Below, piece after piece: positions 530 to 35,493 of a stretch of DNA of 39,748 nt. The position numbers were made by a program, and so were the translations under genes. The stretch comes from a virus: the IMG/VR virus record IMGVR_UViG_3300020186_000043, positions 1 to 39,748 of that record; one strand, written 5' to 3'. Every line of letters starts with the position of its first letter. Position 1 is the stretch's first letter. The notes below the pieces were generated by a model that saw only the letters and a list, made by a program, of their open reading frames with translations, made no database searches and was not told the DNA's origin.

Positions 530-2341
530 ATGGCGACAGAAATCAAAGACGGCGCGGCTACACAGAAGTATCTAAAAAGTACTGGCGCGGGCAGCATTGG
601 GGATGGCTTCGTAGTCGAGCATCTCGACACCAATAGCGCGGCCATCAAAACCGCAGTTGAACTAATTGACAACGCCATTGCGGGTGCAGAAATGCAGGTG
701 GACGTTATCACCATGCCTACCGTCACCATTAGCGATGGCGGCGGCTCGATTACCATAGATGGCACAATTAGCGTTAGCGCACTCCCCGCGGGAACCAATA
801 ACATTGGTGACGTGGATGTGTTAACGTTGCCTGCGTTGGCGGCAGGAACGAACAATATCGGTGACGTAGACATTCTCACCATTGCCGCGGGTGACAATAA
901 TATAGGTAATGTGGACATTGTCACGTTGCCTGCACTCCCCGCCGGAACGAATAATATCGGTGATGTAGATGTTCTTACGCTACCAGGTACGGCGGCAGAG
1001 GCTACGGCGTTGCCATCTCTGCGCGTAGTTGTGGCTGCGGATGATGGCGTTGATACTCACACGTTGCAAACCGACGCAAGCGGTAATCTCAAAGTCAACA
1101 TTCAGGCTGGCTCAAGCGCTGGGACTGAGTACACCGAAGGCGCAATTGACACCACGATTACAGGTACGGCGATTCTCGGCGAGGGGCCGAGTGACACGCT
1201 AACGCCGCTGAAACTAGACGCCTCTAGTAATCTTTATGTCAACGTGGCGGCGGGTGGCACGTCAGGCGTGCAGTACACCGAAGCCGACATTGACGCGACG
1301 ATTACGGGTACGGCAGTGATGTGGGAGGATGCCTCAGATACGCTACGCGTGGCGTCTGCGACCAAGCCTCTGCCTACCGCGATTATTACAGCTCTTCCCG
1401 CTGGAACTAGCAACATCGGTGACGTTGACATTCTGACTATCGCGGCGGGCGACAATAATATAGGTAATGTGGACATTGTTACTGTTCCCGCCGACCCGTT
1501 TGGCGCGACGGCTGATGCGGCTGTTACTGCGGGAGCGACGGGTTCTATTTCCGCAAAATTGCGCTCAATTTCTCGTGACCTCGTGGCTAACGTTGTATTG
1601 GCAGCCGGGGCTAATGCGATTGGCAAACTGGCGGCAAATACTGGCGTTGACATCGGTGATGTTGATGTGCTAAGCGTTGTCCCTGGAACGAGTGCAACCT
1701 CATTGGGCAAAGCAGAAGATGCAGTTCACACCAGTGGTGATACTGGTGTGATGGATTTGTCTGTACGCAAGGATACGGCGACTGCTCTAGCTGGCACTGA
1801 CGGCGACTATCAGCCGTTGATCACCGATGCGAGCGGCAGATTGCATGTAACTGTTGGTAACATTGCAGCCGGAACTGCCCACATCGGCGCGGTGGGTTCA
1901 TCCGACACACTAATTGAGGTGGCGCCAACAATGGATACATCGGCTTATGCAAGTGGCGATGTACTGATTAGCGAGACAGATATTGCAAGTGCAGGTCGGG
2001 CTACGGGTACAACGATTATTCTCCAAAGCCTATTGTTAGTAGACAAGGATGATCAAAAGGCGGCAATGACGTTTTACTTCTTTGACCGCACGGTAACGTT
2101 TGGCACAAAGAACGCCGCGCCTACTATTAGCGATGCAGACGCGGCTTTCTACATGGGGCATGTCGATGTTTTAGCGGGGGACTGGGATGATTTAGGCGGC
2201 GTTTCGGTCGCAACGCTTCGCGGTATTGGGCTAGAGATGAAGCCGAATGCAACGAGCATCTTTTTCACCGCGATAACAGGCGGCACGCCTACTCATACAG
2301 CTTCAGGCTTAATTTGTAAATTTGGCTTCCTAAGATCGTAA
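530..2341 (+). CDS. Repeat-rich tail/fibre structural protein
   Basis: This is a 603-residue protein. The motif NIGDVD(V/I)LT or a close variant recurs about seven times (roughly residues 88-145, 290-318 and 372-380). A second motif, YTE-x-x-ID-TITGTA followed by a DTL segment, occurs twice near residues 205-275. These short Gly/Asp/Val/Thr repeats are typical of elongated beta-structured phage fibres. The last 150 residues lack the repeats and look like a compact beta domain, possibly receptor binding. It lies 10 bases after the preceding small tail gene, with GGGG 6 bases before the ATG. A virion surface role is inferred; no catalytic motif was seen. Confidence 0.8.
   Translation: MATEIKDGAATQKYLKSTGAGSIGDGFVVEHLDTNSAAIKTAVELIDNAIAGAEMQVDVITMPTVTISDGGGSITIDGTISVSALPAGTNNIGDVDVLTLPALAAGTNNIGDVDILTIAAGDNNIGNVDIVTLPALPAGTNNIGDVDVLTLPGTAAEATALPSLRVVVAADDGVDTHTLQTDASGNLKVNIQAGSSAGTEYTEGAIDTTITGTAILGEGPSDTLTPLKLDASSNLYVNVAAGGTSGVQYTEADIDATITGTAVMWEDASDTLRVASATKPLPTAIITALPAGTSNIGDVDILTIAAGDNNIGNVDIVTVPADPFGATADAAVTAGATGSISAKLRSISRDLVANVVLAAGANAIGKLAANTGVDIGDVDVLSVVPGTSATSLGKAEDAVHTSGDTGVMDLSVRKDTATALAGTDGDYQPLITDASGRLHVTVGNIAAGTAHIGAVGSSDTLIEVAPTMDTSAYASGDVLISETDIASAGRATGTTIILQSLLLVDKDDQKAAMTFYFFDRTVTFGTKNAAPTISDADAAFYMGHVDVLAGDWDDLGGVSVATLRGIGLEMKPNATSIFFTAITGGTPTHTASGLICKFGFLRS
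893..921 (+). repeat. 29-bp exact repeat inside the fibre gene (copy 2 at 1451-1479)
   Basis: The 29 bases from 893 to 921 recur exactly at 1451-1479. They encode the DNNIGNVDIV segment of the fibre repeat. The flanking repeat units have diverged at silent and conservative positions while this stretch is unchanged, which suggests a recent exchange between repeat units of the same gene. Confidence 0.8.
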
Positions 2342-2352
2342 GGATTTAAACG

Positions 2353-2427
2353 ATGGCATACAAAGACACCTATCTATTAATCAACGAGGAACAAATCATT
2401 CGCGCTGTCACGGTGGCGGTAGCATGA
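2353..2427 (+). CDS. 24-residue micro-ORF coupled to the LamG gene
   Basis: An ATG at 2353 opens a 24-codon frame (starts MAYKDTYLLINEEQ) that ends in a TGA overlapping the ATG of the next gene (ATGA at 2424). An AGGA lies 9 bases before its start. It may be a true micro-protein or a leader whose translation delivers ribosomes to the LamG gene, which has no clear ribosome-binding site of its own. No family is recognised. Confidence 0.45.
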   Translation: MAYKDTYLLINEEQIIRAVTVAVA

Positions 2428-3158
2428 CTTTACTAGCGGCAACGCGCCGAACATTGCTCTCCCCAAATTTACCGTGGTGGCGTAATAGTTCCCCTCTCTC
2501 CAATTCGCTCGTTGGCTACTGGAAACTAGACGAGGCTAGTGGCAATGCCCTAGATAGTCTTGGATCGAACACCCTAACTGACACCAATACGGTCACAAGC
2601 GCGACTGGCCTCGTCTATTCAACGGCGAGAAGTTTTGCTTCAGCGAGTAGCGAATATCTGAACATTGCCGACAATGCCGCATTAAGTACAGGAGATATAG
2701 ACTTTTGGTTTTCAGGTTGGTTTTATCTGAATTCCTCTCCAAACACCTCAGGGTACGACATTTTAGGCAAATGGGATGTCGCCAGTAATTCAGAATACTT
2801 CCTGGAACTCTATACAGCCGCATCTCAGGTTCATTTCAGATGGGGTGTCTCTAGCAATGGAACGTCTGCAACAGGCGATCTGGACAATATAGAAACGGTT
2901 GCTAACACTACCTGGCATTTCTTTGCCTGCTGGCATGATAGTGTCGCTAATCAGACAGGATACCGATTAAACAGCCAAACAAGAACACTTTCCTACAGTA
3001 CGGGTGTACGGGACGGTACATCTGCATTTACCATAGGTCGTGCGATAACGACACGATATTTTGATGGTCGGATTGGCCCGGTTATGATGGGGAAAGGCTA
3101 TATTCCGACAAGCGACGAATTGGACTTTCTATATAATAATGGCCTGGGGCGACCGTGA
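2424..3158 (+). CDS. LamG/concanavalin A-like lectin-fold protein
   Basis: This 244-residue protein matches the LamG-like jelly-roll pattern. It has an opening LVGYWKLDEASGN near residue 28, a repeated-strand core with SEYLNIAD, FWFSGWFYL and a mid-domain W-HFFACWHD strand, and a closing DGRIGPVMM strand followed by a helix-like tail. In phages this fold usually sits in fibres or tail spikes and binds carbohydrate. It is the last gene before the terminator at 3264, so it closes the late operon. No signal peptide is seen, which fits a virion component. The glycan target cannot be told from sequence. Confidence 0.85.
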   Translation: MTLLAATRRTLLSPNLPWWRNSSPLSNSLVGYWKLDEASGNALDSLGSNTLTDTNTVTSATGLVYSTARSFASASSEYLNIADNAALSTGDIDFWFSGWFYLNSSPNTSGYDILGKWDVASNSEYFLELYTAASQVHFRWGVSSNGTSATGDLDNIETVANTTWHFFACWHDSVANQTGYRLNSQTRTLSYSTGVRDGTSAFTIGRAITTRYFDGRIGPVMMGKGYIPTSDELDFLYNNGLGRP

Positions 3159-3237
3159 GAGCCAGGGTAACTGGCGCGGCCAGTAATTCTATCGTATGGC
3201 ACGCGACGAGTAGGGTTTGGATGGTTTCGACATAGGA

Positions 3238-3291
3238 GCAACCAGAGGTTGCCTAGCAAACAGAAGCCCTGGCACAACCGCCAGGGCTTTT
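3238..3291. terminator. Intrinsic terminator between convergent operons
   Basis: The main hairpin has arms 3264-3273 and 3280-3289 (AAGCCCTGGC / GCCAGGGCTT) around a 6-base loop. A run of four T follows on the plus strand (3288-3291). A smaller hairpin (GCAACC-AGA-GGTTGC, 3238-3252) lies just before it. On the minus strand the main hairpin is followed by TTCTGTTT, so it may stop both the rightward late operon and the leftward early operon. The rest of 3159-3414 holds nothing else convincing. Confidence 0.85.
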
Positions 3292-3414
3292 CGATTCTCC
3301 CTTTGCCCTGATGGGCGGGTATTTGCTGGCAATGAGTCCAGCAATCTCTCAAGTGCGTTAACAGCCTGCGTTAAGCAGTTTATTGCCATGCTCAGGGCGT
3401 TGCTGTGTTCTGTG

Positions 3415-3621
3415 CTATTCCTCACCGCCAGTGAGGTTCTCGACGATGATGTCGATTGCCTCCTGCTCGGTGAGGCAGTTGACCGTCTCGTCGTTGCAGG
3501 CGACCCAGAATTTACCCTCCAGGTCAAGCCCCACCATCAAGTCTCCGCCAATTAGACGGCCTATTGTGTCGGCGCGCTCTACAGATTCCTCTGCTATTCT
3601 GCGTGCTTGTTGCTCGTTCAT
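3415..3621 (-). CDS. Small acidic protein, last gene of the leftward operon
   Basis: This 68-residue protein starts MNEQQARRIAEESVERAD and is mostly helix at the start, then a beta-like centre (GGDLMVGLDLEGKFWVACND) and an acidic helix at the end. A GAGGAG sequence lies about 9 bases before the start. It is the promoter-distal gene of the leftward operon. No family is recognised. Small acidic phage early proteins often bind host factors, but nothing in the sequence shows that here. Confidence 0.7.
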   Translation of the reverse strand: MNEQQARRIAEESVERADTIGRLIGGDLMVGLDLEGKFWVACNDETVNCLTEQEAIDIIVENLTGGEE

Positions 3622-22155: not shown

Positions 22156-22201
22156 AAGGGGAGGTCAATTCGCAAAACGCGAATCGACCTCCCCTTTTTT
22201 T
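22156..22201 (+). terminator. Strong intrinsic terminator at the early/late boundary
   Basis: Arms AAGGGGAGGTC-A-ATTCGC (22156-22173) and GCGAAT-C-GACCTCCCCTT (22179-22196) close an AAAAC loop with one internal mismatch. A run of seven T (22195-22201) follows. This is close to an ideal terminator. The next gene starts only about 23 bases later with no room for a promoter, so late genes must be reached by read-through or antitermination. Confidence 0.95.
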
Positions 22202-22223
22202 GTTGGCACAACGAAAGAACATT

Positions 22224-22820
22224 TTGGCAACCAAACCTATTCCCGAAGTCAAAGTCGTCGCGATTGAACCCGAATTGGTGACGGACATTGCCGCGACGCT
22301 GACAACGCCAGGTGCGACGCCAAAGGGTGAGCCGCCGCCGACAATACCGACGACGCTTCTGTCGGAACTGTCATCGGCTATACCCCTACCCATTCCCGTC
22401 ACCGCGCCGGAACCGCTGCAAGTCGAAGTCGTGGGGGGTATCCCTGACCCGAAAACTTCTGTGATGACGCCTGAGCCGACGCCAGCGATAACACCGCTTC
22501 AGACTGTTACAACCTCGACAACGGCACCGACTCCCGCACTCGTGACGAAGGGACAAGGCACGACGTTACAGCCGACGACAACGGAAGCCGAAGACCTAGT
22601 TAGTGCGGGGCAGCGGACGATTAACCGCACTTGGGAATTCACTCAAAGTGCTTTGACAATAATGCTGACGCTATTATTTGCCTATTGCAAGATATATGGA
22701 ATAGTCGATACGTCCGTTGACATCGCTTTTACTTACGTTCTTGCCACATATCTGACGCGCTCAAACCATACCAAACAGGGTGGAATCCCGCCAGGTGGCT
22801 ACACGGGCCGCATATTATGA
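22224..22820 (+). CDS. Pro/Thr-rich membrane-anchored protein of the lysis region
   Basis: The start is uncertain: no ATG occurs before codon 89 of the frame. A TTG at 22224 has GAAAG six bases before it; a TTG at 22200 lies in the terminator T-run. From 22224 the product has 198 residues. Residues about 20-130 are rich in proline and threonine with repeated TP and TTT patches, like an extended cell-wall stalk. Two membrane segments follow (FTQSALTIMLTLLFAYCKIY and IAFTYVLATYL), then a short tail. Position before small membrane proteins and the endolysin suggests a lysis or wall-spanning role. Confidence 0.6.
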   Translation: MATKPIPEVKVVAIEPELVTDIAATLTTPGATPKGEPPPTIPTTLLSELSSAIPLPIPVTAPEPLQVEVVGGIPDPKTSVMTPEPTPAITPLQTVTTSTTAPTPALVTKGQGTTLQPTTTEAEDLVSAGQRTINRTWEFTQSALTIMLTLLFAYCKIYGIVDTSVDIAFTYVLATYLTRSNHTKQGGIPPGGYTGRIL

Positions 22821-23763: not shown

Positions 23764-25911
23764 ATGAAAAGTCTGCTTTACGGCCTGCATGACATCCAAG
23801 CCGCCCCCCATGTTCCGCCGGGGGGATGGGTGGTTGACGTGGTTGCAATGTCTGAGAATCCGCAACCTACTGACTATACAGCCCTAAGAGCCGATGTGAA
23901 TTGGATAGTTAGATTGTCGTGGGGCTACGGCTCGACAGGCACAATTCCGATGCCAAGTGGCTATCAGAACTTCGCGAACGCCTGCGCCAACTATGTAGCG
24001 AAGAGCCAGGGTGCAAACATTTGGATCATCGGTAATGAGGCGAATCATCAAAACGAGAGGCCCCACGGCACTTACATCACGCCTGCAATGTATGCAGAGT
24101 GTTTCGCCAAGTGCCGCAACGCTATCAAGCGCGGCAATCCCAACGCTCGCGTTGTTCCGGCACCGTGCGCGCCCTACCATGCCAGCCCCGTGAGTTGGCT
24201 AGACTATTGGCGCGACATGCTTGGCTATATCGCGGCGAATGGCGGCTGTGATGGCATTGCCGTGCACGCCTATACTCGGTCGAGCAACCCTGCGGACATT
24301 GCCAGCAGTGCCAAGATGGGGCCGCCGCTTGAAAAAACATACAGCGGCTTTCGCACCTATGAGGATGCGCTGGACGCTGTGCCGATGGCACTCGGCAACT
24401 TGCCAGTATACATTACTGAGTTCAATGAGTTGCTTGACGGTGGATGGGATGACCGCAATACAGGCGTGGTGCAGGCGGCATACGAAAATGTCAACGAGTG
24501 GAACAGCCGGTCGGATAGGGAAGACCGCTTGCCAATCCAATGCCTTGTCCTCTATCGCTGGCCCAAGTTCGACAGATGGTACATAGACGGTAAGAACGGC
24601 GTCATTGACGACTTTCGCGCGGCGGTGGAGCGCGGCTACCTCTCGCCAACAGGAGCAAACGCTGTGAATACACATATCCCCGTCGTAAGCCCCGGAACCC
24701 CCGCACCACAGCCGAGCTTGCCGCCGCGCGGTTGGGACGAGCGATTGACGCAGCGCGGGGTGACTGTCGAGACGCCTCCTATTGCGCCAGGGCAACAGTT
24801 CTGGCGAGTGGTCAAGGCGCGCTGGTATAACGAGGACGAAGCCGGGGGACGACACCATATTTACATTGAGACGTACAATCCGAATGGCAATCCTATGGCT
24901 GATGTGCCGTTTCGTGTTACGTGGCCCTCTGGAGAAACGCGGGGGCGCACGAATCTTCGAGAGGGGTTTGACGCTGCCAATTATCCTATGAGTAAATCAC
25001 TCAATGAGTTTAGCGTGATGATTCGGCCCGATATTGACGTTCCCTCCGAAACGCTCAAGGGTATCGGCATGGGCGCGGATGGCAACAGTGGCATCCACAC
25101 GTCAACGTCCGTCACGTTTCGGTTGGTGCGAATGCCACAGATCACGACTGGCAGCACTCCGGAAAATCCGGACACCTCACTGCCGCCGCCCATCATGCAG
25201 CCGCCTGTTACGTTTTTCGTGTCGGTAAAGTTGGGTGCGAACGTCCGCACGCAACCCCTAACGGGCAGCATCGTGACGGCCATCCCGTTTGGCGAACAAG
25301 TTTCTGTCATCGGCTATGATGCCGTGCGTCAATGGGCCTATGTGCGCTGGCAGGGCGTCGAAGGCTACGTGCTGGCCGCGCTACTCAGTTCGCGTGAGCC
25401 AAGCGTGCCTAGTGCGCCGACAGTGGTAGGCGACGGCCCAACGCCCGTTCAGCCGCCTCCGGGTGACAACTGGCAACGGTGCCTAGCTTTCATTTTGCGC
25501 TGGGAGGGCGGTTGGGCAGACGACCCCAATGATGTAGGTGGTGCAACGATGCGTGGGATCACCATCGGCACATACACGCGTTGGCGCGAGGCGCATGGGC
25601 AGCCCGCTCCGAGCAAAGATGACTTGCGGAACATCCCTGACGCCATTGTGGAGCAAATTTTCCGGGAGTGGTATTGGAATGAGTCAAAAGCCAACACGCT
25701 TGCATGGCCTATGTGCCTGGCGCAAATGAATATTGCCGTCAACGCTGGGCCTGGGCGCGCTATGCAGTTTTTGGCTGACAGTGGCGGTAACTTTCTGCTC
25801 TATAACGCAATCGCGTTGGAGTGGTACACAAAGATAGACGGCTGGAAGCATTTTAGTGCTGCGTGGGCGCGCCGATGTGCCGATGTGCTGCGCGAGGCAG
25901 CGGGCAAATGA
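23764..25911 (+). CDS. Endolysin with two glycoside-hydrolase domains
   Basis: This 715-residue protein has four parts. Residues 1-300 look like a (beta/alpha)8 glycoside hydrolase with IIGNEANH (Glu92) and YITEFNE (Glu219) as likely acid/base and nucleophile. Residues about 315-460 are a beta domain ending in a Ser/Thr-rich strand, perhaps carbohydrate-binding. Residues about 484-550 form an SH3b-type domain (VRTQPLTGSIVTAIPFGEQV) that would bind the cell wall. Residues 568-715 are a GH108-type muramidase with FILRWEGGWADDP (Glu581) and ATMRGITIG. Two catalytic modules in one endolysin point to a complex cell wall. Coupled to the holin-like gene. Confidence 0.85.
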   Translation: MKSLLYGLHDIQAAPHVPPGGWVVDVVAMSENPQPTDYTALRADVNWIVRLSWGYGSTGTIPMPSGYQNFANACANYVAKSQGANIWIIGNEANHQNERPHGTYITPAMYAECFAKCRNAIKRGNPNARVVPAPCAPYHASPVSWLDYWRDMLGYIAANGGCDGIAVHAYTRSSNPADIASSAKMGPPLEKTYSGFRTYEDALDAVPMALGNLPVYITEFNELLDGGWDDRNTGVVQAAYENVNEWNSRSDREDRLPIQCLVLYRWPKFDRWYIDGKNGVIDDFRAAVERGYLSPTGANAVNTHIPVVSPGTPAPQPSLPPRGWDERLTQRGVTVETPPIAPGQQFWRVVKARWYNEDEAGGRHHIYIETYNPNGNPMADVPFRVTWPSGETRGRTNLREGFDAANYPMSKSLNEFSVMIRPDIDVPSETLKGIGMGADGNSGIHTSTSVTFRLVRMPQITTGSTPENPDTSLPPPIMQPPVTFFVSVKLGANVRTQPLTGSIVTAIPFGEQVSVIGYDAVRQWAYVRWQGVEGYVLAALLSSREPSVPSAPTVVGDGPTPVQPPPGDNWQRCLAFILRWEGGWADDPNDVGGATMRGITIGTYTRWREAHGQPAPSKDDLRNIPDAIVEQIFREWYWNESKANTLAWPMCLAQMNIAVNAGPGRAMQFLADSGGNFLLYNAIALEWYTKIDGWKHFSAAWARRCADVLREAAGK

Positions 25912-26011
25912 GCATAAGCGCAGCAGTGCCAGGGTGCAGACGCGTAGCCTGTTGCGCGCTGGGGACTATGACAAACTGCAAACGGTTATCGCCGTGGGTT
26001 ATACGGATTGA
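25883..26011 (+). CDS. Possible small protein after the endolysin (frame uncertain)
   Basis: A frame from an ATG at 25883, inside the endolysin end, to TGA at 26009-26011 reads EHKRSSARVQTRSLLRAGDY then DKLQTVIAVGYTD, which is protein-like. A second frame from 25908, overlapping the endolysin stop, runs to the next gene start. Neither has a good ribosome-binding site. At most one is real; the first looks better by composition. Confidence 0.3.
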   Translation: MCCARQRANEHKRSSARVQTRSLLRAGDYDKLQTVIAVGYTD

Positions 26012-26023
26012 ACGGAGGTTTTG

Positions 26024-26248
26024 ATGAAAAACAGTGGGTTCTGGGCGTCACTCTCGATAGGTGCGATTGTGACGATGAGTATCGCCTTCGCCCTTAATCA
26101 GAACGAAGCGCAAGCGGCAACAAACAAGACTTTCCCGCTTTGCGAGCCGATTAACAGCGCGGCAACGATTATCGTGTACCGTTGCGAGCCAGATTATGGC
26201 GCGCCGTACTTGCTCAATAGCGTCGGATTTATGTTGATCGAAGAATAG
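26024..26248 (+). CDS. Small secreted or membrane protein
   Basis: The ATG at 26024 has GGAGG five bases before it. The 74-residue protein has a hydrophobic N-terminus (ASLSIGAIVTMSIAFALNQN) that fits a signal peptide with a possible cleavage after the AQA-A site. Two cysteines follow (FPLCEPI and YRCEPDYG), so a disulfide is possible. It precedes the secreted DUF1996 protein. Family unknown. Confidence 0.65.
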   Translation: MKNSGFWASLSIGAIVTMSIAFALNQNEAQAATNKTFPLCEPINSAATIIVYRCEPDYGAPYLLNSVGFMLIEE

Positions 26249-26257
26249 GCTGTAAAA

Positions 26258-27097
26258 ATGAAGAAGATCGTACTTTCCTTTCTTTTGTTCGTGGCACTTT
26301 GCATTGCGCCAACGCAAACCGTCGGTGCCGCTGACAGCGGGTGGATTGTCTCATGCAACTATTCACACTCGTTGCCCGACGACCCCATCGTTTCACCCAG
26401 CCAACCCGGCGGCTCTCACCTACACGACTTCGTAGGCGCGACCACCACCAACGCCGCGTCCACAGGAGAATCTCTTTTGGCGGGTGGCACAACGTGCCTC
26501 GTGCCGGGTGACAAGTCGGCTTATTGGGTTCCGGCACTTTACCGCAATGGGGTACGCCTTCTGCCACAGGGGACAAGCAAAAACGCTTTGTTCTACTACC
26601 GGCGTAAGGGCGCACCCGCCGGTGTAACCGTGCAGCCGTTCCCGCTTGGGCTGAAAATCATTGTCGGCAATGCAAAAGCCACGTCACCCGCTGAGAACCC
26701 GCAACTCGGCAGCCAGATCATTTGGAAGTGTGGGCCTGGCAGCGGAACGGATTTAGCCGCCCCGCCTACGCAATGTAGCAGCGGCATCATGGTTGTGTCG
26801 TTGCAGTTCCCGAATTGTTGGGACGGAACAAATCTGGACAGCGCAGACCATCGCTCGCACATGGCCTATCCAAGTGGCAGCAGTTGTCCCGCGACACATC
26901 CTGTCGTGTTACCACGCATCGAATCGTTCTTCCGTTATAACGTCGGCACGGCACCCATCGGCACAATCACGCTGGCGAGTGGCCCGTACTATACGATCCA
27001 CCAAGATTTCTTTAACGCCTGGGAGCCAGGCGTATTGCAGAGCTTGATTAACAAGTGCATAAATCCAGGCACCGACTGTGGAACTAATCCAAATTAA
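26258..27097 (+). CDS. Secreted DUF1996-family protein
   Basis: This 279-residue protein has a signal peptide (MKKIVLSFLLFVALCIAPTQ, cleavage near AGAA). The DUF1996 signature follows: CNYSHSLPDDPIVSPSQPGG, then SHLHDFVGATTTNAAST, SAYWVPALY, and near the end FPNCWDGTNLDSADHRSHMA with PATHPVVLPRIESFF and FFNAWEPGVLQSLINKC. Many cysteines could form disulfides. DUF1996 is known mainly from fungi and some bacteria and its function is unknown. Finding it in a phage late operon is unusual. It may be a released host-wall-active or dispersal factor, or a virion protein, which is speculation. Confidence 0.9.
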   Translation: MKKIVLSFLLFVALCIAPTQTVGAADSGWIVSCNYSHSLPDDPIVSPSQPGGSHLHDFVGATTTNAASTGESLLAGGTTCLVPGDKSAYWVPALYRNGVRLLPQGTSKNALFYYRRKGAPAGVTVQPFPLGLKIIVGNAKATSPAENPQLGSQIIWKCGPGSGTDLAAPPTQCSSGIMVVSLQFPNCWDGTNLDSADHRSHMAYPSGSSCPATHPVVLPRIESFFRYNVGTAPIGTITLASGPYYTIHQDFFNAWEPGVLQSLINKCINPGTDCGTNPN

Positions 27098-27816
27098 TGG
27101 CAATCGCGTTTGCGAATCTGGGCGCGTCGTTAGACCCAGATATCAATCTAACGACCAATCTAACGTCTTACGCCAGCGCATCGTGGACGCCGCCGACGGC
27201 CGATTTGCTGATTGTCTTTTGTCAGAACTCGGCGGCATCGGCGGCTGCCGCTGTCACACCAACCGTTTCGGGGAATTCGATTACCTACGTAGAGATTGCG
27301 ACGGTGATTAACGACATCAACCGCATAAGCCTATTCGCGGCGAATCTTTCCGGCGCGACGGCTGGCGCAACAACGTTTGCTTTTGCGGGCAATACGCAGA
27401 CCACTTTCAGAGCGTCATTTTCCCAAGCGACAGGTGTTAACCTAACAGGCGGCGTCGCGGCAGCTTTTGTGCAACAGCCTACAAACTCAGGCGCGGCTGC
27501 AACAAGTGGCAGCGTGACATTGGCAGCCGCCGGACATGCTGACAATCGCCCTATCGCTGGCTTCTGGCATACGGCGAATGAGCAGAGTACGCCTCGCACT
27601 AGCTGGACAGAACTCGACGACCTTAGGCTTGGCACACCACCGGCGACGTTGGAGACGCAGTACCGTAGTGACGCCTTTGAGACAACCGCCTCGGCAACAT
27701 GGGCGACCAGTGTTATCTGGGCGGGCATAGCCGCCGAACTCAAGGCAACGTTGGCCGCTGGAAAAGCACCACCATTCGCAGCACGAGCTTTACGTATGTG
27801 GATAAAACGGAGGTAG
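27097..27816 (+). CDS. Beta-rich structural/fibre protein
   Basis: The ATG shares one base with the previous stop (TAATG). The 239-residue protein is rich in Ala/Thr/Ser and in short strands (TPTVSGNSITYVEIATVIND, AGATTFAFAGNTQTT), with a conserved-looking ADNRPIAGFWHTANEQ. The last residues are basic (RALRMWIKRR). It resembles phage fibre or baseplate accessory domains; no catalytic motif is seen. Confidence 0.65.
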   Translation: MAIAFANLGASLDPDINLTTNLTSYASASWTPPTADLLIVFCQNSAASAAAAVTPTVSGNSITYVEIATVINDINRISLFAANLSGATAGATTFAFAGNTQTTFRASFSQATGVNLTGGVAAAFVQQPTNSGAAATSGSVTLAAAGHADNRPIAGFWHTANEQSTPRTSWTELDDLRLGTPPATLETQYRSDAFETTASATWATSVIWAGIAAELKATLAAGKAPPFAARALRMWIKRR

Positions 27817-27819
27817 CAA

Positions 27820-28302
27820 TTGGCACGAATTTATACATTGCCCTACACAGGGACGCTAACATTGGCGGGCGGTGACGCCGATCTATTTGAGATTAACCCA
27901 GCCGACGATAAACCAATTCGTCTGCGTGGCCTGATTCTGGGCCAAACGACCGAAGTGGCAGACGCGGCGGAGGAATCGCTACGCATTAGCATTATCCGCC
28001 TACCCCTCACGGTGACGAGTGGAAACGGCACGGCGGTAACGCCAGTTGCGCTCGATTCGCATGAGGCGGCGGCTGCATTTACAGCCGAATCCAACGGCGC
28101 AACGGTCGCGACGACATCAGGTGCCGTCGCCATTATAGAGGAATTTGCCTGGAACATCCGCATGAGCCCGCTTGAACGTTGGTGGCCTGATGAGCAGTTT
28201 GCACCGATGGCCTATCAAGCGGAGGCGTTGATTGTGCGCTGCCAAACGACGGTGGCTGACGATATTACGATTGCCATTACCGCCTACGTAGAAGAAATCT
28301 AG
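27820..28302 (+). CDS. Phage structural protein
   Basis: A TTG at 27820 has GGAGG six bases before it. The 160-residue protein starts MARIYTLPYTGTLTLAGG and has SLRISIIRLPLTVTSGNG and SPLERWWPDEQFAPM. Such proteins with a conserved beta core recur in tail regions of related phages. The role is inferred from place and pattern. Confidence 0.65.
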   Translation: MARIYTLPYTGTLTLAGGDADLFEINPADDKPIRLRGLILGQTTEVADAAEESLRISIIRLPLTVTSGNGTAVTPVALDSHEAAAAFTAESNGATVATTSGAVAIIEEFAWNIRMSPLERWWPDEQFAPMAYQAEALIVRCQTTVADDITIAITAYVEEI

Positions 28303-28309
28303 CTAGACC

Positions 28310-29848
28310 GTGCCGCACTTTATTCGTTACCGCAGGTCATTACGTAGGCAACGGCGTTTTGTCTTTAGCAAGACAGCGACGGGCGCGAGCTACAACCAGA
28401 GCGCGGGCGGAACCGTTACCCCCGCAGGCGCGATTAGCAAAGGTATCGCCAAGTTATTTGCAGGAACGTTAACGACCGCCGGTGCGCTGATTCGCCTAGT
28501 CGCTAAGTTATTCGCGGGGACGCTAACGAGTAGTGGCACACTCATTCGCAACGCAGGCAAAACGCTTGCAGGCACTTTAACAACCAGTGGAACCATCACG
28601 ACCGCACGCGGCTACGCACGCTCACTTGCGGGGACGCTGACAAGTGCTGGGGTACTCAGTACCGCACGCGGCTATGTTCGCTCCTTTGCAGGCACGTTGA
28701 CGACAGCGGGAAGCCTAGTACGGGCAACGGCGAAGGCTTTGGCAGGCACGCTAACGAGTAGCGGCGTTGTGACAAGAGTACGCGGTTATTTTCGCTCCCT
28801 TGCCGGAACGCTTACGAGTAGTGGCGCATTGTCCAGGACAGTCGTCTATGCCCGTTCACTCGCTGGCACATTAACGAGTAGTGGCGCGCTTACTACCGCG
28901 CGCGGTTATGTGCGCTCACTCGCTGGGACGCTCACCAGCGCGGGCGCACTAAGCCGTAATGCAGCAAAGGCACTTGCTGGCACGCTCACCAGCAGCGGTG
29001 TACTGAGCAGAGCGCGAACGTATGCCCGTTCTCTTGCGGGTACGCTCACCACTTCCGGCGCATTGCTGCGGGCAATCGCGAAGAGCCTTGCCGGAACACT
29101 AACGAGCGGCGGCGTTGTCTCAACCGCACGCGGTTACATTCGTTCCTTTGCAGGAACGTTAACGAGTAGTGGCACTATCGCCCGCAGCATAAGTAAAGCA
29201 TTTGGCGGGACGCTTACCAGCGCGGGAACACTTGTTCGTAAAACCGCTAAACTCCTGAGCGGCGTGTTAACGAGTGCGGGTGCGCTAAGTACAGAGTTGG
29301 CTGGCGGCTTTGCCCAAGCGGTGGGCGGCACGCTTACGCTGGCAGGCGCAATCACGCGACAGACTAGCAAGAGCCTAGCAGGTACGCTCTCAAGCGCAGG
29401 CAACATCCTACGCGCCATCGCTAAGTCATTTGCTGGCACGTTGACGCCCAGCGGCACATTGCAAACGGCGCGCACCTACATTCGCTTATTTGCCGGGACA
29501 TTGACGACGGCTGGCACGCTGGCACGCAATACCGGCAAGACGCTCACGGGGTCACTTGCTCCCAGCGGCGCAATTGCTAGAGCCATCAGCAAAGCCGTTG
29601 CGGGCGCGCTGAGTTTTATCGGCACACTAACCAGGACGCTGGCGGGCAGCAGTACGGCCTTGCTGGACGTTGCGCTCAGTGACAGTGCCGTCAACCTAGC
29701 GACGCTAAGTGATAGCGCGGTGTACGCCGCAAGTTTGGCAGATAGTTTGGTAAACACAATTAGCCTAGTCGATAGCGCGGTGTACGCCGCGACGTTACAA
29801 AGCAGCGCGGTCTACGCCGTGACCTTATCAGATACAACGAGGACATAA
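28310..29848 (+). CDS. Fibre protein built of 22 AGTLT repeats
   Basis: The GTG at 28310 is the start given by the frame; no clear ribosome-binding site precedes it. The N-terminus is basic (FIRYRRSLRRQRRFVFSK). From residue 33 to about 447 there are 22 units of 18-22 residues, each beginning with AGTLT(S/T)SG-x-(L/I) and often continuing ARGYxRSL or AKxL. A second, shorter repeat, LSDSAVYAATL and variants, forms the last 60 residues. Such regular beta repeats make long fibres. It is likely a side or tail fibre; repeat number may vary among relatives. Confidence 0.8.
   Translation: MPHFIRYRRSLRRQRRFVFSKTATGASYNQSAGGTVTPAGAISKGIAKLFAGTLTTAGALIRLVAKLFAGTLTSSGTLIRNAGKTLAGTLTTSGTITTARGYARSLAGTLTSAGVLSTARGYVRSFAGTLTTAGSLVRATAKALAGTLTSSGVVTRVRGYFRSLAGTLTSSGALSRTVVYARSLAGTLTSSGALTTARGYVRSLAGTLTSAGALSRNAAKALAGTLTSSGVLSRARTYARSLAGTLTTSGALLRAIAKSLAGTLTSGGVVSTARGYIRSFAGTLTSSGTIARSISKAFGGTLTSAGTLVRKTAKLLSGVLTSAGALSTELAGGFAQAVGGTLTLAGAITRQTSKSLAGTLSSAGNILRAIAKSFAGTLTPSGTLQTARTYIRLFAGTLTTAGTLARNTGKTLTGSLAPSGAIARAISKAVAGALSFIGTLTRTLAGSSTALLDVALSDSAVNLATLSDSAVYAASLADSLVNTISLVDSAVYAATLQSSAVYAVTLSDTTRT
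28406..29650 (+). repeat. DNA repeat array encoding the AGTLT units
   Basis: Twenty-two related 54-66 base units occupy the gene. They agree at the AGTLTSSG codons but differ in many synonymous positions (GCGGGGACG, GCAGGCACG, GCCGGAACG), so the array is old rather than freshly amplified. It is coding and not CRISPR-like, since no constant repeat or regular spacer is present. Confidence 0.85.
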
Positions 29849-29850
29849 TA

Positions 29851-30459
29851 ATGAACAGCACAGTCAACATGGCGGGCAATTTGGGATTCAAGGTGCAACG
29901 CGCACAGGGCGCTCCCCTCGCTTGGCGCATTCGTAACGCGCTGCGTCCGAGCTTTTGGAGTGGATGGGCGGCGGTGCAAATGGCCAAAGCCTTTAGTGCG
30001 CTGACAGGCTTCCCCATCCTTCACAGCCAGCTAGAAGTACAACTGCGCCGCAAGGACGGCAGCCGCGTCAACTACGGCGTGGTGGGCTATCGCGTCGTGA
30101 CCACGGCCTTTGTCACCTTCGTGGTGGATCAGTTGCAAACAGAAACGGCCGTCTTCGGCGATTTCAAATTTCATGACAGTGGCGTGGGTGTAACCGCTGA
30201 AGCCATCGGCAATACGGCGATGGAAACGACAGACGGCGAGGCGCGCGTGAGTGGTACGCAGACAGAGAGCGGAGCAACAGTTTACGTAAGTGTCGGAACC
30301 ATCGCCTACACTACTACTAAGGCTATAACCGAGCATGGTTTGTTCAACGACTTGACGGTAGGCACGCTGATGGATCGCACCGTGTTCACGGCCATCAACG
30401 TGGTAAATACTGATCAGATCACCTATACCTACTCGCTCACTGTATCGGCTGGCGGATAA
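29851..30459 (+). CDS. Conserved tail/structural protein
   Basis: This 202-residue protein contains VVTTAFVTFVVDQLQTET, then FKFHDSGVGVTAEA, RVSGTQTESGATVYVSVGTI, AITEHGLFNDLTVGT and LMDRTVFTAINVV. This series is common in tail-fibre-associated structural proteins of many phages. The N-terminal 60 residues are basic and vary more. It lies between fibre and baseplate-type genes. Mechanism unknown. Confidence 0.7.
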   Translation: MNSTVNMAGNLGFKVQRAQGAPLAWRIRNALRPSFWSGWAAVQMAKAFSALTGFPILHSQLEVQLRRKDGSRVNYGVVGYRVVTTAFVTFVVDQLQTETAVFGDFKFHDSGVGVTAEAIGNTAMETTDGEARVSGTQTESGATVYVSVGTIAYTTTKAITEHGLFNDLTVGTLMDRTVFTAINVVNTDQITYTYSLTVSAGG

Positions 30460-30474
30460 GTAAATGGGGGCAGC

Positions 30475-30771
30475 ATGGCAAACGGTTATCAAATAGGCGA
30501 TTTGGTTCGTATTGCGGGAATCTTCACCAACGCGGCGGGTACGGCGGTAGACCCCACTGCCGTTCTTGCCAAATACAAGACGCCGGCGGGCGTCATAACT
30601 ACGCTTACCTATGGCGTGGACGTGGCGTTGGTGCGCGACAGTGTGGGCAACTATCACGTGGACATCAATGCCGCCTCAGAAGGTCGCTGGCGATACCGCT
30701 TTTACTCGACAGGCACGGGCCAAGCCGCCAACGAGGAAGATTTCATCGTGTCGGGAAGCAGCTTCGATTGA
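30475..30771 (+). CDS. Small structural protein with an Ig-like beta fold
   Basis: This 98-residue protein starts MANGYQIGDLVRIAGIFTNA and ends with RWRYRFYSTGTGQAANEEDF, a strand pattern like a bacterial Ig-type or transglutaminase-adhesin domain. GGGGGC lies just before the ATG. It is probably an adhesin or fibre-tip accessory. Its stop overlaps the next ATG. Confidence 0.65.
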   Translation: MANGYQIGDLVRIAGIFTNAAGTAVDPTAVLAKYKTPAGVITTLTYGVDVALVRDSVGNYHVDINAASEGRWRYRFYSTGTGQAANEEDFIVSGSSFD

Positions 30772-31823
30772 TGCCAAACGTTTATTTGCCACAGGTGTTT
30801 GGCACCGGCCCCACCTCGCAAGGCGGCGCGTCTGTCGAACGCGTCGTCTTTGACCTCATGGCCTCCCATCCCGAACAAGGGCGCGTCGGCATGGCATGTG
30901 CTTTGTCAGCTAGGGGGCTAGCTTTTATGTTGGATTTCGGGTATAATGAAGGAGCAAACCACATAAAAAGTAGCGGAAGCGCGTCAACGCCCCGCTACCC
31001 TTTCAGTACATGCGATAGAGGCGCACGTACCATGTCTTATTCTATTCCCAACCCAACCGAACAATCAAATATCCCCTACGGCTACTGTCATTGCGGCTGT
31101 GGTCAACTGACGCACGTCCCTAATAGCAATCACCGCAAAAGCGGGTGGGTCAAAGGTGTGCCTATGCGTTACATTCGGGGACACCATAGCCCTAAGCTAC
31201 CTTTGGAGCAAGTCTTTTGGGCGCGTGTGCCTAAGCTCTCACCTGAAGAATGTTGGATATGGCAAGGAGCGGTCACGTCTGGAGGATACGGAAATATAAG
31301 GAATGAATACAAGTCGTTGAGTGCCCATCGTGTTGCATACGAGTTGCACTATGGAACAATCCCCCCCGAGTTGGTGGTGCGGCACAAATGCGACGTGAAA
31401 TTGTGTTGCAATCCCTTTCATTTGGAGATTGGCTCACATAAGGACAACTCGGAAGATATGGTACGAAGAGGTCGCAGTGCAAAGGGTGCAAGCAGTGGCA
31501 CCGCCAAAATTGCGTCATCAGACATATTGGAAATTTTGCGTTTGTACAATTCCGGTCTGACTCAAAAGCAACTCGCGCTTAGATTTGGCATTAGCCGCTC
31601 GAATATCGGACTCATCGTAAACCGACAGACATGGACGGATACCGAGGCTGTCGCAGGATATACCAAGCGCGAGCGGGCAACGAAACTCAAGAAATCCGAT
31701 ATTGAGGAGATATTCAATTTAGCCGAACAAGGATTGCTGCAAAGAGAGATTGCCGTGAAATTTGGAGTCTCCAGGAGTCGAATTGGTCAAATCTTAACTG
31801 GCCAAAGGCGGGCCGTTGAATAA
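30771..31823 (+). CDS. HNH homing endonuclease carrying a truncated CAP-gene N-terminus
   Basis: This 350-residue frame has a mosaic structure. Residues 1-45 (MPNVYLPQVFGTGPTSQGG and onward to HPEQGRVGM) match the start of the downstream CAP protein. From residue 88 (ATG 31032, MSYSIPNPTEQS) comes an HNH_3-type endonuclease: CHCGCG, AHRVAYELHYG, VRHKCDVKLCCNPFHLEIGS and HKDNSEDMVRRGR, then two helix-turn-helix units (QLALRFGISRSNIG and EIAVKFGVSRSRIG). The endonuclease may be read from 31032 alone. It is a free-standing mobile gene set into a CAP-type gene. Confidence 0.8.
   Translation: MPNVYLPQVFGTGPTSQGGASVERVVFDLMASHPEQGRVGMACALSARGLAFMLDFGYNEGANHIKSSGSASTPRYPFSTCDRGARTMSYSIPNPTEQSNIPYGYCHCGCGQLTHVPNSNHRKSGWVKGVPMRYIRGHHSPKLPLEQVFWARVPKLSPEECWIWQGAVTSGGYGNIRNEYKSLSAHRVAYELHYGTIPPELVVRHKCDVKLCCNPFHLEIGSHKDNSEDMVRRGRSAKGASSGTAKIASSDILEILRLYNSGLTQKQLALRFGISRSNIGLIVNRQTWTDTEAVAGYTKRERATKLKKSDIEEIFNLAEQGLLQREIAVKFGVSRSRIGQILTGQRRAVE
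30970..30998 (+). other. Hairpin upstream of the HNH start
   Basis: GTAGCGG (30970-30976) pairs with CCGCTAC (30992-30998), with an inner GCG/CGC. It follows a consensus-like TATAAT (30942-30947) and an AAGGAG (30949-30954) that lacks a start codon. Such a hairpin before a homing endonuclease could limit its translation, as known for T4 homing genes, which is inference. Confidence 0.45.
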
Positions 31824-32316
31824 ATTGTACTTGCCTCAGGCGTTCGGCAATGCCGCAGTTAGCAACCAAGGGGAGAATTCTGTTGCGCATGAAGTTTTTC
31901 TTTTAATGAGAGATCATCCGCTCCAGGGAAGAACGCGGATGATTTTTGACGAACGTCTGGCCGACATTGCCCATTCGCGCGTGATGAGCCAAGCGCGCGA
32001 CGGCTGGTCGGGGCATGTAGACCCACAGGGGCGTGGGCCTAATGCTTACTGTCGCATGGTAGGCTACCAACTTCCTGACTGGTATTTGCAGGATAACGAC
32101 GCGAACAACATTGAGAGCATCGCAGATTCAGGAGACGGCAGCGTCGAAGGCGTGTGGGACTCGTGGCTCGGCTCAACTGGCCATCGTATGCACATTTTAG
32201 CGACAGACAGTTTTTACAAGGCGCAAACTCAGGTTGGCATTGCGTATTACTATCTGGCGACAAGCAAGCATTTGCACTACTGGTGCATTCTTAGCGCGCC
32301 GCCGGTGGGGGAGTAG
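31816..32316 (+). CDS. CAP (SCP/PR1)-domain protein
   Basis: A TTG at 31816 overlaps the HNH stop and gives MNKLYLPQAFGNAAVSNQGE. The 166-residue protein shows CAP signatures: HEVFLLMRDHPLQGRTRM, GWSGHVDPQGRGPNAYCRM, SWLGSTGHRMHIL and VGIAYYYLATSKHLHYWCIL. CAP proteins are usually secreted and may bind lipids or cut proteins; this one has no signal peptide and probably is part of the virion or released at lysis. The ribosome-binding site is weak (AAAGG). Its N-terminus is the paralogous copy of the fragment fused to HNH. Confidence 0.85.
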   Translation: MNKLYLPQAFGNAAVSNQGENSVAHEVFLLMRDHPLQGRTRMIFDERLADIAHSRVMSQARDGWSGHVDPQGRGPNAYCRMVGYQLPDWYLQDNDANNIESIADSGDGSVEGVWDSWLGSTGHRMHILATDSFYKAQTQVGIAYYYLATSKHLHYWCILSAPPVGE

Positions 32317-32322
32317 GGGAGC

Positions 32323-32961
32323 ATGAGCGAGAAGATAAGCACGATTGGCGATTTGATACAAGACCGCACCAACCCGCGCAAGCACAACCCTCGTAACCTC
32401 AAGACGATTGTGGATAGCCTGCACGACGTGGGTTTTGCACGCTCCATTGTAATTGACGAAGACAATAACATCCTGGCCGGCAACGGCGTCACAGAAGCGG
32501 CTGCAATTGCAGGCATCGAAAAGGTAATCGAGATAGAAGCCGATGGCAATACCATTATTGCCGTGCGGCGTCGTGGCTTAACCGACGGGCAAAAGCAGCG
32601 GCTTAAATACTTTGACAATCGTAGTGGCGAATTAGCTGAATGGAATGTCGAGCAACTGTTTGCCGACATGGGCGCGGGGCTTGACCTGTCGGGCATGTTT
32701 CGCGAGGACGAGCTAGACGCGCTGCTGGCGGGGATGCAGCCGCTTGATGACCCTAATGCACATTGGCAGGGGATGCCAGAGTTTGAGCAGGATGATTTAA
32801 CGTCGTTTCGTTCGGTGCATGTTCACTTCAAGACACAGGCAGATGTAGACGCATTCGCCCAATTGATTGGGCAGGAATTGGGCAACAAAGCCCGTTCGGT
32901 TTGGTATCCTGAGGCCGAAAAAATAGATATGTATAGTGAGTTATACGTAGATGAATCCTGA
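32323..32961 (+). CDS. ParB-like protein
   Basis: The 212-residue protein has the ParB/Srx core: ISTIGDLIQDRTNPRKHNPR, LKTIVDSLHDVGFARSIVID, NILAGNGVTEAAAIAGIEKV and then VRRRGLTDGQKQRLKYFDNR. These match the ParB N-terminal fold that in phages accompanies methyltransferases or DNA-modifying systems, as in the TET/JBP phages. The C-terminal half is acidic and less conserved. It overlaps the next gene by 11 bases. Confidence 0.8.
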   Translation: MSEKISTIGDLIQDRTNPRKHNPRNLKTIVDSLHDVGFARSIVIDEDNNILAGNGVTEAAAIAGIEKVIEIEADGNTIIAVRRRGLTDGQKQRLKYFDNRSGELAEWNVEQLFADMGAGLDLSGMFREDELDALLAGMQPLDDPNAHWQGMPEFEQDDLTSFRSVHVHFKTQADVDAFAQLIGQELGNKARSVWYPEAEKIDMYSELYVDES

Positions 32962-33820
32962 TTATCCTGTTTACATTATATCCAAAGGCCGGTGGGATTC
33001 TCGTCTAACAAGTAAGGCACTTGAAAGAATGCGAGTTCCGTATCATATCGTGATAGAGCCGCAAGAATATGAGCAATACGCGGCGGTGATCGCCCCTGCC
33101 AAGATTCTCGTGTTGCCATTTAGCAACTTAGGACAAGGTTCAATCCCTGCGCGTAATTGGGTATGGGAGCATTCCTTAAGTATCGGCGCGGCGCGGCATT
33201 GGATATTAGACGATAACATTTATTACTTTTGCAGATTGCACAAAAACAGGAAGCTACACGCCGACACAGGGGCAATCTTTAAGGCGGCAGAGGATTTTTC
33301 GGATAGATACGAAAACGTGGCGATTTCGGGGATGCAATACTATATGTTCGCTAGTCAAAAGACAAAGATGCCGCCTCTCGCATTTAACACGCGTGTCTAT
33401 TCCTGCATTCTTATTCAGAACAATATCCCTTATCGTTGGCGCGGGCGATATAACGAGGATACTGACCTGTCGCTACGCGCCTTAAAAGACGGATGGTGTA
33501 CCGTCCTATTTAATGCGTTTCTCGCCCGCAAGCAACAAACCATGACAGCAAAGGGCGGCAACACCGAGTCACTGTACAAGCTGAACAACGGCGACGATGG
33601 GCGGCTTCTAATGGCGCAATCCCTACAGCAGCAGCATCCCGACGTTACCAAGATTGTCCAGAAGTGGGGACGCTGGCAGCATCATGTAGACTATCGCCCC
33701 TTCAAGAAAAACAGATTGAAATTTAAGCCTGGGATAGAGATGCCCGAAGGTACTAACAATTTCGGCATGAAGTTAGTTAAGCGCGACGCCACAGGCAAAA
33801 CGCCCGTACTAGTGGAATAA
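32951..33820 (+). CDS. TET-associated-type glycosyltransferase
   Basis: This 289-residue protein fits the phage TET-associated glycosyltransferase (TAGT) pattern: YIISKGRWDSRLTSKALERM, VIEPQEYEQYA, SIPARNWVWEHSLS, ARHWILDDNIYYFCRLHKNR with an acidic DDN metal site, LAFNTRVYSC, WRGRYNEDTDLSLRALK and MTAKGGNTESLYKLN. In phages that make TET/JBP oxygenases, such enzymes glycosylate 5-hydroxymethylcytosine in DNA. No oxygenase is in this window, so the base being modified is unknown. Its neighbour is ParB-like, as in those phages. Confidence 0.85.
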   Translation: MNPDYPVYIISKGRWDSRLTSKALERMRVPYHIVIEPQEYEQYAAVIAPAKILVLPFSNLGQGSIPARNWVWEHSLSIGAARHWILDDNIYYFCRLHKNRKLHADTGAIFKAAEDFSDRYENVAISGMQYYMFASQKTKMPPLAFNTRVYSCILIQNNIPYRWRGRYNEDTDLSLRALKDGWCTVLFNAFLARKQQTMTAKGGNTESLYKLNNGDDGRLLMAQSLQQQHPDVTKIVQKWGRWQHHVDYRPFKKNRLKFKPGIEMPEGTNNFGMKLVKRDATGKTPVLVE

Positions 33821-33838: not shown

Positions 33839-34189
33839 ATGGGTGAACAACAGAAGGCAAACGAGAAATATAAAATTGACGACATCGTTACCGCCATCAA
33901 AGGCAGTAGCGGCATCAAGGCGAACATCATGCGTCGCCTCAATTGCAGCCGCAGCACGGTGGACAACTACCTGCGTCGCTATGCCACGGCGCAAGCTGCC
34001 TACGACGAAGAGACGGAGATGCCGCTTGACGTTGCCGAGTCTTTGGTCATCAGCGATATGGTGACGAATCGCAACGTCGAAACGGCGAAGTGGTATCTCA
34101 AGGCGAAGGGCAAGCGCCGCGGGTATACGGAGCGCACGGAAATACAGCACAGCGGCGAGATAGAAATGCTAATCAGGCTTGACAAATGA
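33839..34189 (+). CDS. terS: Terminase small subunit
   Basis: This 116-residue protein has a helix-turn-helix near residues 25-48 (SGIKANIMRRLNCSRSTVDN) and a basic C-terminus (LKAKGKRRGYTERTE). Size, basic charge and position directly before the large terminase identify it. It would bind the packaging site and regulate the large subunit. Overlaps the large subunit start by four bases. Confidence 0.8.
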   Translation: MGEQQKANEKYKIDDIVTAIKGSSGIKANIMRRLNCSRSTVDNYLRRYATAQAAYDEETEMPLDVAESLVISDMVTNRNVETAKWYLKAKGKRRGYTERTEIQHSGEIEMLIRLDK

Positions 34190-35493
34190 CAACCGAGATT
34201 AACTTTTCTGAACTATGCGGATTTTCTGACAAGCAATGGGCGGCGACGCATACAGCCGACGCTCATAGGTATACGCTGTTCGGTGGCAGTCGTGGCCCCG
34301 GAAAAAGTTACTGGTTGCGCTGGTATTTGGTGCGCTATTTACTGCGTCAAGCCGCTGCTGGGCGCATGGGCGTGCGTGTGATGCTGGGCTGCGAGGATTA
34401 CCCGTCGCTCTACGAACGCCAGGTAAGCAAGGTTCAGCTTGAATTTCCGATATGGCTGGGCGAATACATGGTAGGACGCAATGAGTACCAGTTGCGGCCT
34501 CAATATGGCGGCGGCGTGATTGCTTTTCGCAACTTGGACAATCCAAGCAAATATCAAAGCGCAGAATTTGCGGCGATGGCGATTGACGAAATCACCAAGA
34601 ACCCGCGCCGTACCTTTGACATTTTGCGCGGCTCCTTGCGCTGGGCGGGCATTGACGATGTGAAGATGATTGCGGCCAGCAATCCTGAGGCCAATTGGGT
34701 GCGTGACTATTGGATTGAAAAGAATCTACCCGAAGAAATGGAAGGTCACGAACACGAGTTCGCTTTTGTGCCTGCCTTGCCTGAGGACAATCCGCATTTG
34801 CCGCAAAGCTATTGGGAGATGCTAGACACGCTTTCCGGCGCACTGCGCATGGCTTGGCGCTATGGAGATTGGTACGCAGCAGTGGAGGGATTGGTGTACA
34901 GCAATTTTAATGCCGACAATATCACCGATCAGGAACCTGACAGAAGCCGTCCCTATGCGCTGGCAATTGATGACGGCTATGTTGACCCGCGTGCCACTTT
35001 GTTTATTCAGCCGCAACGCAACGGTGATTTGCTGGTCTTTGATGAACTGTACGAAACGCAAAAGCTGGAAGAAGAAACGATTAGCAACATTGAATCCACC
35101 TATGCCCATTACGAAATGGGCTTGCCCACGGTGGCGGCTGTGTCACATGAGGCCGTCGCCCTACGCAAACGCTTGAAGCAAGCAAAGATACGCGCTACGA
35201 ATTGGATGGAACATCGCGTAACGGGTTCATCCAGCACTCGCCTTGCGGCAATAACTTTGACACGCTCGATGTTCTGCGATGGCAAAGGCCACAGGGCTAT
35301 CAAAATACATCGTCGTTGCAAGCATTTGATAGACGAGATAAGCGTGGGCTACAAATATCCAGAAGGCAAGCACGGTTTTGAAACGCATCCTGCGGACGGA
35401 AACGACCACGCCGTTAACGCGCTAGAAGGATTCATTTGGGCAGCTTATGGCACGGTTGGCGAACGCCAACGGACACGGAGTAGAGAATATTAA
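34186..35493 (+). CDS. terL: Terminase large subunit
   Basis: This 435-residue protein has Walker A GGSRGPGKS at residues 33-41, Walker B MAIDEI at 131-136, and a later AIDDGYVDPRA as the first acidic site of the RNaseH-like nuclease. The segment VMLGCEDYPSLYERQVSK and WAAYG near the end complete the family pattern. It translocates and cuts DNA into the prohead. The start overlaps the small subunit; the stop shares one base with the portal start. Confidence 0.9.
   Translation: MTTEINFSELCGFSDKQWAATHTADAHRYTLFGGSRGPGKSYWLRWYLVRYLLRQAAAGRMGVRVMLGCEDYPSLYERQVSKVQLEFPIWLGEYMVGRNEYQLRPQYGGGVIAFRNLDNPSKYQSAEFAAMAIDEITKNPRRTFDILRGSLRWAGIDDVKMIAASNPEANWVRDYWIEKNLPEEMEGHEHEFAFVPALPEDNPHLPQSYWEMLDTLSGALRMAWRYGDWYAAVEGLVYSNFNADNITDQEPDRSRPYALAIDDGYVDPRATLFIQPQRNGDLLVFDELYETQKLEEETISNIESTYAHYEMGLPTVAAVSHEAVALRKRLKQAKIRATNWMEHRVTGSSSTRLAAITLTRSMFCDGKGHRAIKIHRRCKHLIDEISVGYKYPEGKHGFETHPADGNDHAVNALEGFIWAAYGTVGERQRTRSREY

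Follow-up and report, generated by a model that had tools for sequence, protein, structure and literature searches.

The window studied here, a stretch of 39,748 nucleotides taken as a whole, comes from an IMG/VR virus record with terminase, portal and head genes and carries a DUF1996 gene that recurs in many unrelated phages. Comparison of the carriers strongly supports the view that this gene is mobile cargo. Our preferred explanation, held tentatively and at a little less than an even chance, is that it encodes a Sec-exported, glycan-acting accessory protein, made late, that would help progeny leave the host or spread.

A sequence-only reading had described a full DUF1996 signature on a phage-borne protein, and the profile search that it proposed as a check returned DUF1996. 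PF09362 matched with an E-value of 1.1e-46 and 160 bits (gathering cut-off, 27 bits), over the whole profile (1-237 of 237) and residues 42-255 of the protein. All residues of the fungal signature, D-X4-P...H-X-H...YW-X-P...CP...H-X-D-X3-GW, are present in order, with three spacers slightly shorter than in the fungal form and AW instead of GW; the strict published fungal pattern has no match in the protein, and a loosened pattern matches residues 42-255. The conserved residues of the domain are D42, H54, H56, Y89, W90, Y113, Y114, H248, D250 and W255, together with eight cysteines. Searches returned no other Pfam family up to E 10 and no PHROG match, a phmmer match to BamC (E 0.13) was dismissed as noise, and the antisense reading of the gene was rejected for its several internal stops. 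Membership in DUF1996 is, in itself, ordinary.

The virus contig G002 (L088, L167, L168; 52.9 kb) is collinear with the window over most genes, and its DUF1996 copy, 94% identical, lies in the same place. The ends of G002 overlap each other by 441 bases (93% identical) within the endolysin gene; G002 is therefore nearly complete, and the window probably covers about three quarters of a genome of this kind. Between the two DUF1996 copies, the signal-peptide-like N-terminus is the most divergent part, and the mature part shows a dS of 0.057 and a dN of 0.009. This dS is low relative to that of the portal (0.345), which suggests that the DUF1996 segment was recently exchanged. Against the copies in L003, L089 and L090, dS is saturated and dN is 0.21-0.32, and by the comparison with these three relatives the gene is under purifying selection. 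This selection and the conserved position in G002 establish the open reading frame as a real gene.

Table 1. Features in and around the DUF1996 gene, in window coordinates.
Feature	Coordinates	Strand	Basis or remarks
Membrane protein, possible holin	22200..22820	+	Hydrophobic segment; homology to L089 protein
Endolysin: GH108 muramidase, SH3_3 and unassigned N-terminal domain	23764..25911	+	Pfam, PHROG
Small protein, secreted or anchored in the membrane, at most 75 aa (ATG 26024)	26021..26248	+	Directly upstream of DUF1996
DUF1996 gene, 279 aa	26258..27097	+	ATG 26258, TAA 27097; Sec signal peptide and one domain
Signal-peptide-like N-terminus, residues 1-25 (VGA-AD)	26258..26332	+	Hydropathy, low pLDDT
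DUF1996 domain proper	26381..27022	+	Residues 42-255
239-aa protein	27097..27816	+	ATG overlaps DUF1996 stop at 27097

The endolysin upstream matched PF05838 (E 2e-22), PF08239 (E 7e-7) and phrog_315 (endolysin); its N-terminal domain appears glycosidase-like by eye and gave no significant PDB match. The small protein between endolysin and DUF1996 has a hydrophobic N-terminus followed by AQA-A, and it is 93% identical in G002, at the same position. The possible holin is 37% identical over 86 aa to a protein of phage G003 (L089 9521-9958) that directly precedes DUF1996 there. On the other side, the 239-aa protein has no Pfam or PHROG match and is 59% identical in G002. The earlier placement of DUF1996 between endolysin and structural genes thus holds for the endolysin; the genes directly downstream (27097-30771) belong to no named family, although it is plausible that they are structural, and the next identified virion genes are the terminase at 34186 and the portal at 35493. 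No promoter- or terminator-like site was found at 25700-27500, consistent with one transcript.

Elsewhere in the window, positions 28310-29848 encode a 512-aa protein of about 20-residue AGTLTSSG...R repeats that belongs to no family. At 30768-32316, a 351-aa open reading frame starts as a CAP-domain protein (YLPQVFG...) and runs into an HNH/HTH endonuclease. The frame after it is a complete CAP protein; its first ~45 codons are recoded, and beyond them it hardly differs from the CAP gene that G002 has as one intact copy (L088 5953-6453). From these sequences, it looks as if a homing endonuclease split the CAP gene and brought in a divergent 5' end to replace the original one. At 32323-33820, a gene for a ParB-like nuclease precedes one for a phrog_842 glucosyltransferase (beta-glucosyl-HMC-alpha-glucosyltransferase), which hints at DNA base modification. 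The sequences led to no host assignment: for terminase and portal, identity to phages, mostly of Actinobacteria, is no more than 24-29%, and no tRNA was found. A Chloroflexota host, suggested by a YLP motif, is only a guess.

With respect to export, the N-terminus of the window protein (MKKIVLSFLLFVALCIAPTQTVGA followed by AD) has a basic start, a hydrophobic core (Kyte-Doolittle up to 3.1 over 12 aa) and small residues at -3/-1. In the AlphaFold2 model, pLDDT is low at residues 1-25 and rises above 97 after about residue 30. Hydropathy and the pLDDT profile thus agree with the signal peptide noted earlier, and the copies of G002, G003 and G006 share a similar N-terminus. Under a lenient secretion test, applied identically to both sets, signal peptides were found in 51 of 60 non-redundant viral DUF1996 copies (about 85%) and in 44 of 572 neighbouring ORFs (8%). 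That the viral DUF1996 proteins are secreted is strongly supported by these predictions.

The AlphaFold2 model is confident (pLDDT 92.8, pTM 0.87). It has no fold match at E<=0.001 in the PDB or in BFVD, which holds viral models; the family profile matched no PDB chain by sequence up to E 10, and we found no solved structure for the family. The window protein matched no established glycosidase, lyase or LPMO family in Pfam or the PDB. A relation to LPMOs was rejected, the sole AA14 match (E 8e-4, L004) lying in a Ser/Gly/Thr-rich stretch outside the DUF1996 domain. Likewise, PHROG, PDB fold and BFVD fold searches returned no fibre, spike or adhesin family, and the ordinary fibre domain that would have spoken against the earlier reading does not appear among the matches of the predicted fold. 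Residues D42, H54, H56, W90, Y113, Y114, H248 and D250 are kept in all 47 aligned viral domains, across which the eight cysteines are nearly invariant. D42, H54, H56, H248 and D250, with Y113 and Y114, are candidates for a catalytic or metal-binding site.

In IMG/VR, a pattern scan identified at least 84 other environmental virus contigs, mostly unrelated, that encode DUF1996 relatives; the scan was pattern-limited, which makes this count a lower bound, and the best 80 of the 84 were kept. A phage copy had been taken for a rare acquisition, a view that these many unrelated phages contradict. Counting the phrog_2 family alone, a large terminase is present in 21 of 50 carrier records, one of them 322 kb long. 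In GenBank, phage MW202423 (Caudoviricetes sp. ctgwJ031; circular, deposited as complete) encodes UOF76731.1, a 494-aa protein annotated as hypothetical that matches DUF1996 with an E-value of 2e-38; it comes from a different phage, is 31% identical to the window protein and has a long N-terminal extension. Matches in Salmonella 'phages' were rejected as bacterial-genome contigs in a phage collection, with the gene beside DMSO reductase genes. The open-access literature searched yielded no paper reporting DUF1996 in phages or its recurrence as phage cargo.

Several carriers show further features. Many viral copies (L098, L099, L120, L143 and others) have N-terminal repeated modules of ~57 residues with the pattern W..vA.EG..F.v..VRYG..W..K..G.C.n.FG.DP..G.vK.CE, which has no Pfam match, and the viral protein at L105:9962-11668 ends in a calcineurin-like phosphoesterase domain (PF00149, E 4e-7). 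DUF1996 genes stand in tandem in L037 (a Saccharibacteria MAG, 1332-3538), L099 and L149. In L090-L093 (G004-G007), each terminase match contains one in-frame TGA, for example G006:C1:5260-6792, which may reflect an intron, a frameshift or recoding.

The gene appears to move as cargo because its nearest relatives, at 67-74% identity, sit in phages that have hardly anything else in common with the window. The copy in G003 (L089) is 74% identical, and the two phages otherwise share only the holin-like protein and a 27%-identical portal; with G006 (L092), whose copy is 67% identical, DUF1996 is all that is held in common apart from a generic HNH endonuclease match. Gene neighbours also differ widely among carriers. 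DUF1996 is preceded in G003 by an endolysin, a protein reading as a parallel beta-helix and the holin-like protein; it follows tail or tail-fibre genes in several carriers (L100, L120, L122, L126), has amidase or spanin genes nearby in others, and in L090 has the portal gene directly downstream. The proximity to lysis genes seen in the sequence-only reading is therefore true of the window, but this variation means that a tie to lysis is not general. In a tree of 78 DUF1996 domains, the 'virus' label requires about 10 changes, at least 5 of them on well-supported branches. A virus-dominated clade comprises 35 virus and 3 cell rows, and we do not claim it as phage-specific because the cellular sampling was of the 80 best. 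The nearest cellular relative of the window's phage group is a chromosomal copy in a WWE3 bacterium (55% identity), with CdaA-type and VanW genes as neighbours.

Among cells, 56 of the 396 genomes sampled in the phylum to which a Streptomyces genome belongs have DUF1996, so that its description as mostly fungal, with some bacteria, was an understatement. A Burkholderiales sample gave 4 of 399 and the phylum containing the WWE3 genome 3 of 287, starting genomes included in both; the Saccharibacteria genome, about 1 Mb in size, has three matches. The Beauveria bassiana proteins Vlp1-3 and Wsc1I (PF09362) resemble the window protein over the whole domain, including the signature D-X4-P, H-X-H, YW-X-P, CP, H-X-D-X3-(G/A)W. 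The fungal Vlp proteins, however, are vacuolar and reported without a recognised signal peptide (PMC4738358), whereas the window copy is phage-borne, single-domain and equipped with one. In the literature searched we found no enzymatic activity for any DUF1996 protein; the studies covered only fungal localisation and stress phenotypes.

Under our preferred explanation, the carriers would be lytic or mostly non-integrating phages, and DUF1996 would be made late in infection, together with lysis and head genes, and exported by the host Sec machinery via a cleaved signal peptide. It would then fold beyond the cytoplasm, forming as many as four disulphides. There it would act on a glycan beyond the host membrane, whether wall glycan, capsule or exopolymer, probably as an enzyme using the candidate site described above. 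Loosening of the polymer around the dying cell could then aid endolysin-driven release and let virions spread. By analogy, the glycan reading draws support from sugar-binding domains joined to some relatives: among the 52 cellular relatives sampled, 10 bear galactose-binding domains of the F5/8C type and one bears CBM96 (the other 41 have no recognised sugar-binding domain), and fungal members occur with CBM1, CBM6 or WSC domains (PMC7679414). In addition, the two neighbourhoods studied most closely, those of the window and G003, combine DUF1996 with lysis and glycan-acting genes, which is consistent with a part in release. A wall or polymer role, which the sequence-only reading had raised, is a reasonable lead. 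Like phage polysaccharide depolymerases, the window protein is proposed to open up the polymer that surrounds the host, but depolymerases of the classical kind belong to the virion, as tail spikes with a beta-helix fold, whereas the window protein has a Sec signal and another fold.

The first alternative, possible but distinctly less probable, is a secreted protein that binds glycans without catalysis, coating host or debris polymers or shielding the receptor, and so excluding other phages or keeping progeny from sticking to lysed fragments. The same linkage to sugar-binding domains (PMC7679414) fits this, as do secretion, the predicted richness in disulphides and the lack of enzyme homology; neither sequence nor fold matched a CAZy-type protein or a solved structure, a result compatible with an enzyme as well as with a binding protein. 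However, the invariant His/Asp/Tyr set in all viral copies exceeds what a lectin usually needs, and receptor shielding would pay most in lysogens, whereas most carriers are without an integrase.

Next, and unlikely, is a gene for lysogenic conversion or host fitness; whether active in a prophage or over a long infection, it would let the host use polymers as food or better withstand stress, much as DUF1996 proteins do in fungi. Beauveria DUF1996 deletions cause sensitivity to wall, osmotic and metal-ion stress (PMC4738358), the family is common in actinomycetes, and a tyrosine integrase (PF00589) is present in 8 of 36 carrier records. It is absent from the other 28, making lysogenic conversion less likely for the window phage, and no serine recombinase (PF00239) was found in the 36. 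Neither integrase type was found in the window, which is a fragment, in the near-complete G002 or in MW202423, and DUF1996 is positioned among late genes.

Less probable again is a virion component (tail tip, spike or capsid decoration) in contact with the host surface despite its signal peptide. Its position after tail-tip or tail-fibre genes in the four carriers named above and the long N-terminal modules of many viral copies would suit such a part, but signal peptides in about 85% of copies would divert it from cytoplasmic virion assembly, it moves at 67-74% identity between phages whose portals are 27% identical or undetectable, and it has no fibre fold match. Finally, a passive hitch-hiker of no use to the phage, although in keeping with how little else the carriers share, is very improbable given purifying selection, the putative-site residues kept in every viral copy, and the recurrent, clustered distribution among phages.

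Phages strip genes to what pays, and a signal peptide and an invariant site kept in unrelated phages point to an extracytoplasmic activity useful in infection. A bolder form of the preferred explanation, which we regard as doubtful, is that DUF1996 proteins are secreted enzymes of a class not yet characterised, acting on glycans through a fold absent from the PDB, and that they serve many unrelated environmental phages as a freely secreted, non-virion polymer-degrading factor that aids escape or spread. What is most interesting, and goes beyond what the sequence-only reading offered, is that unrelated phages repeatedly carry this gene as cargo, with its site conserved and its fold absent from solved structures. 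It would add a group of secreted phage proteins unnamed in current phage annotation (PHROGs). The family is large in fungi and actinomycetes, and the short single-domain phage copies, the window's included, lend themselves to expression and could open the function of the DUF1996 family as a whole to testing.
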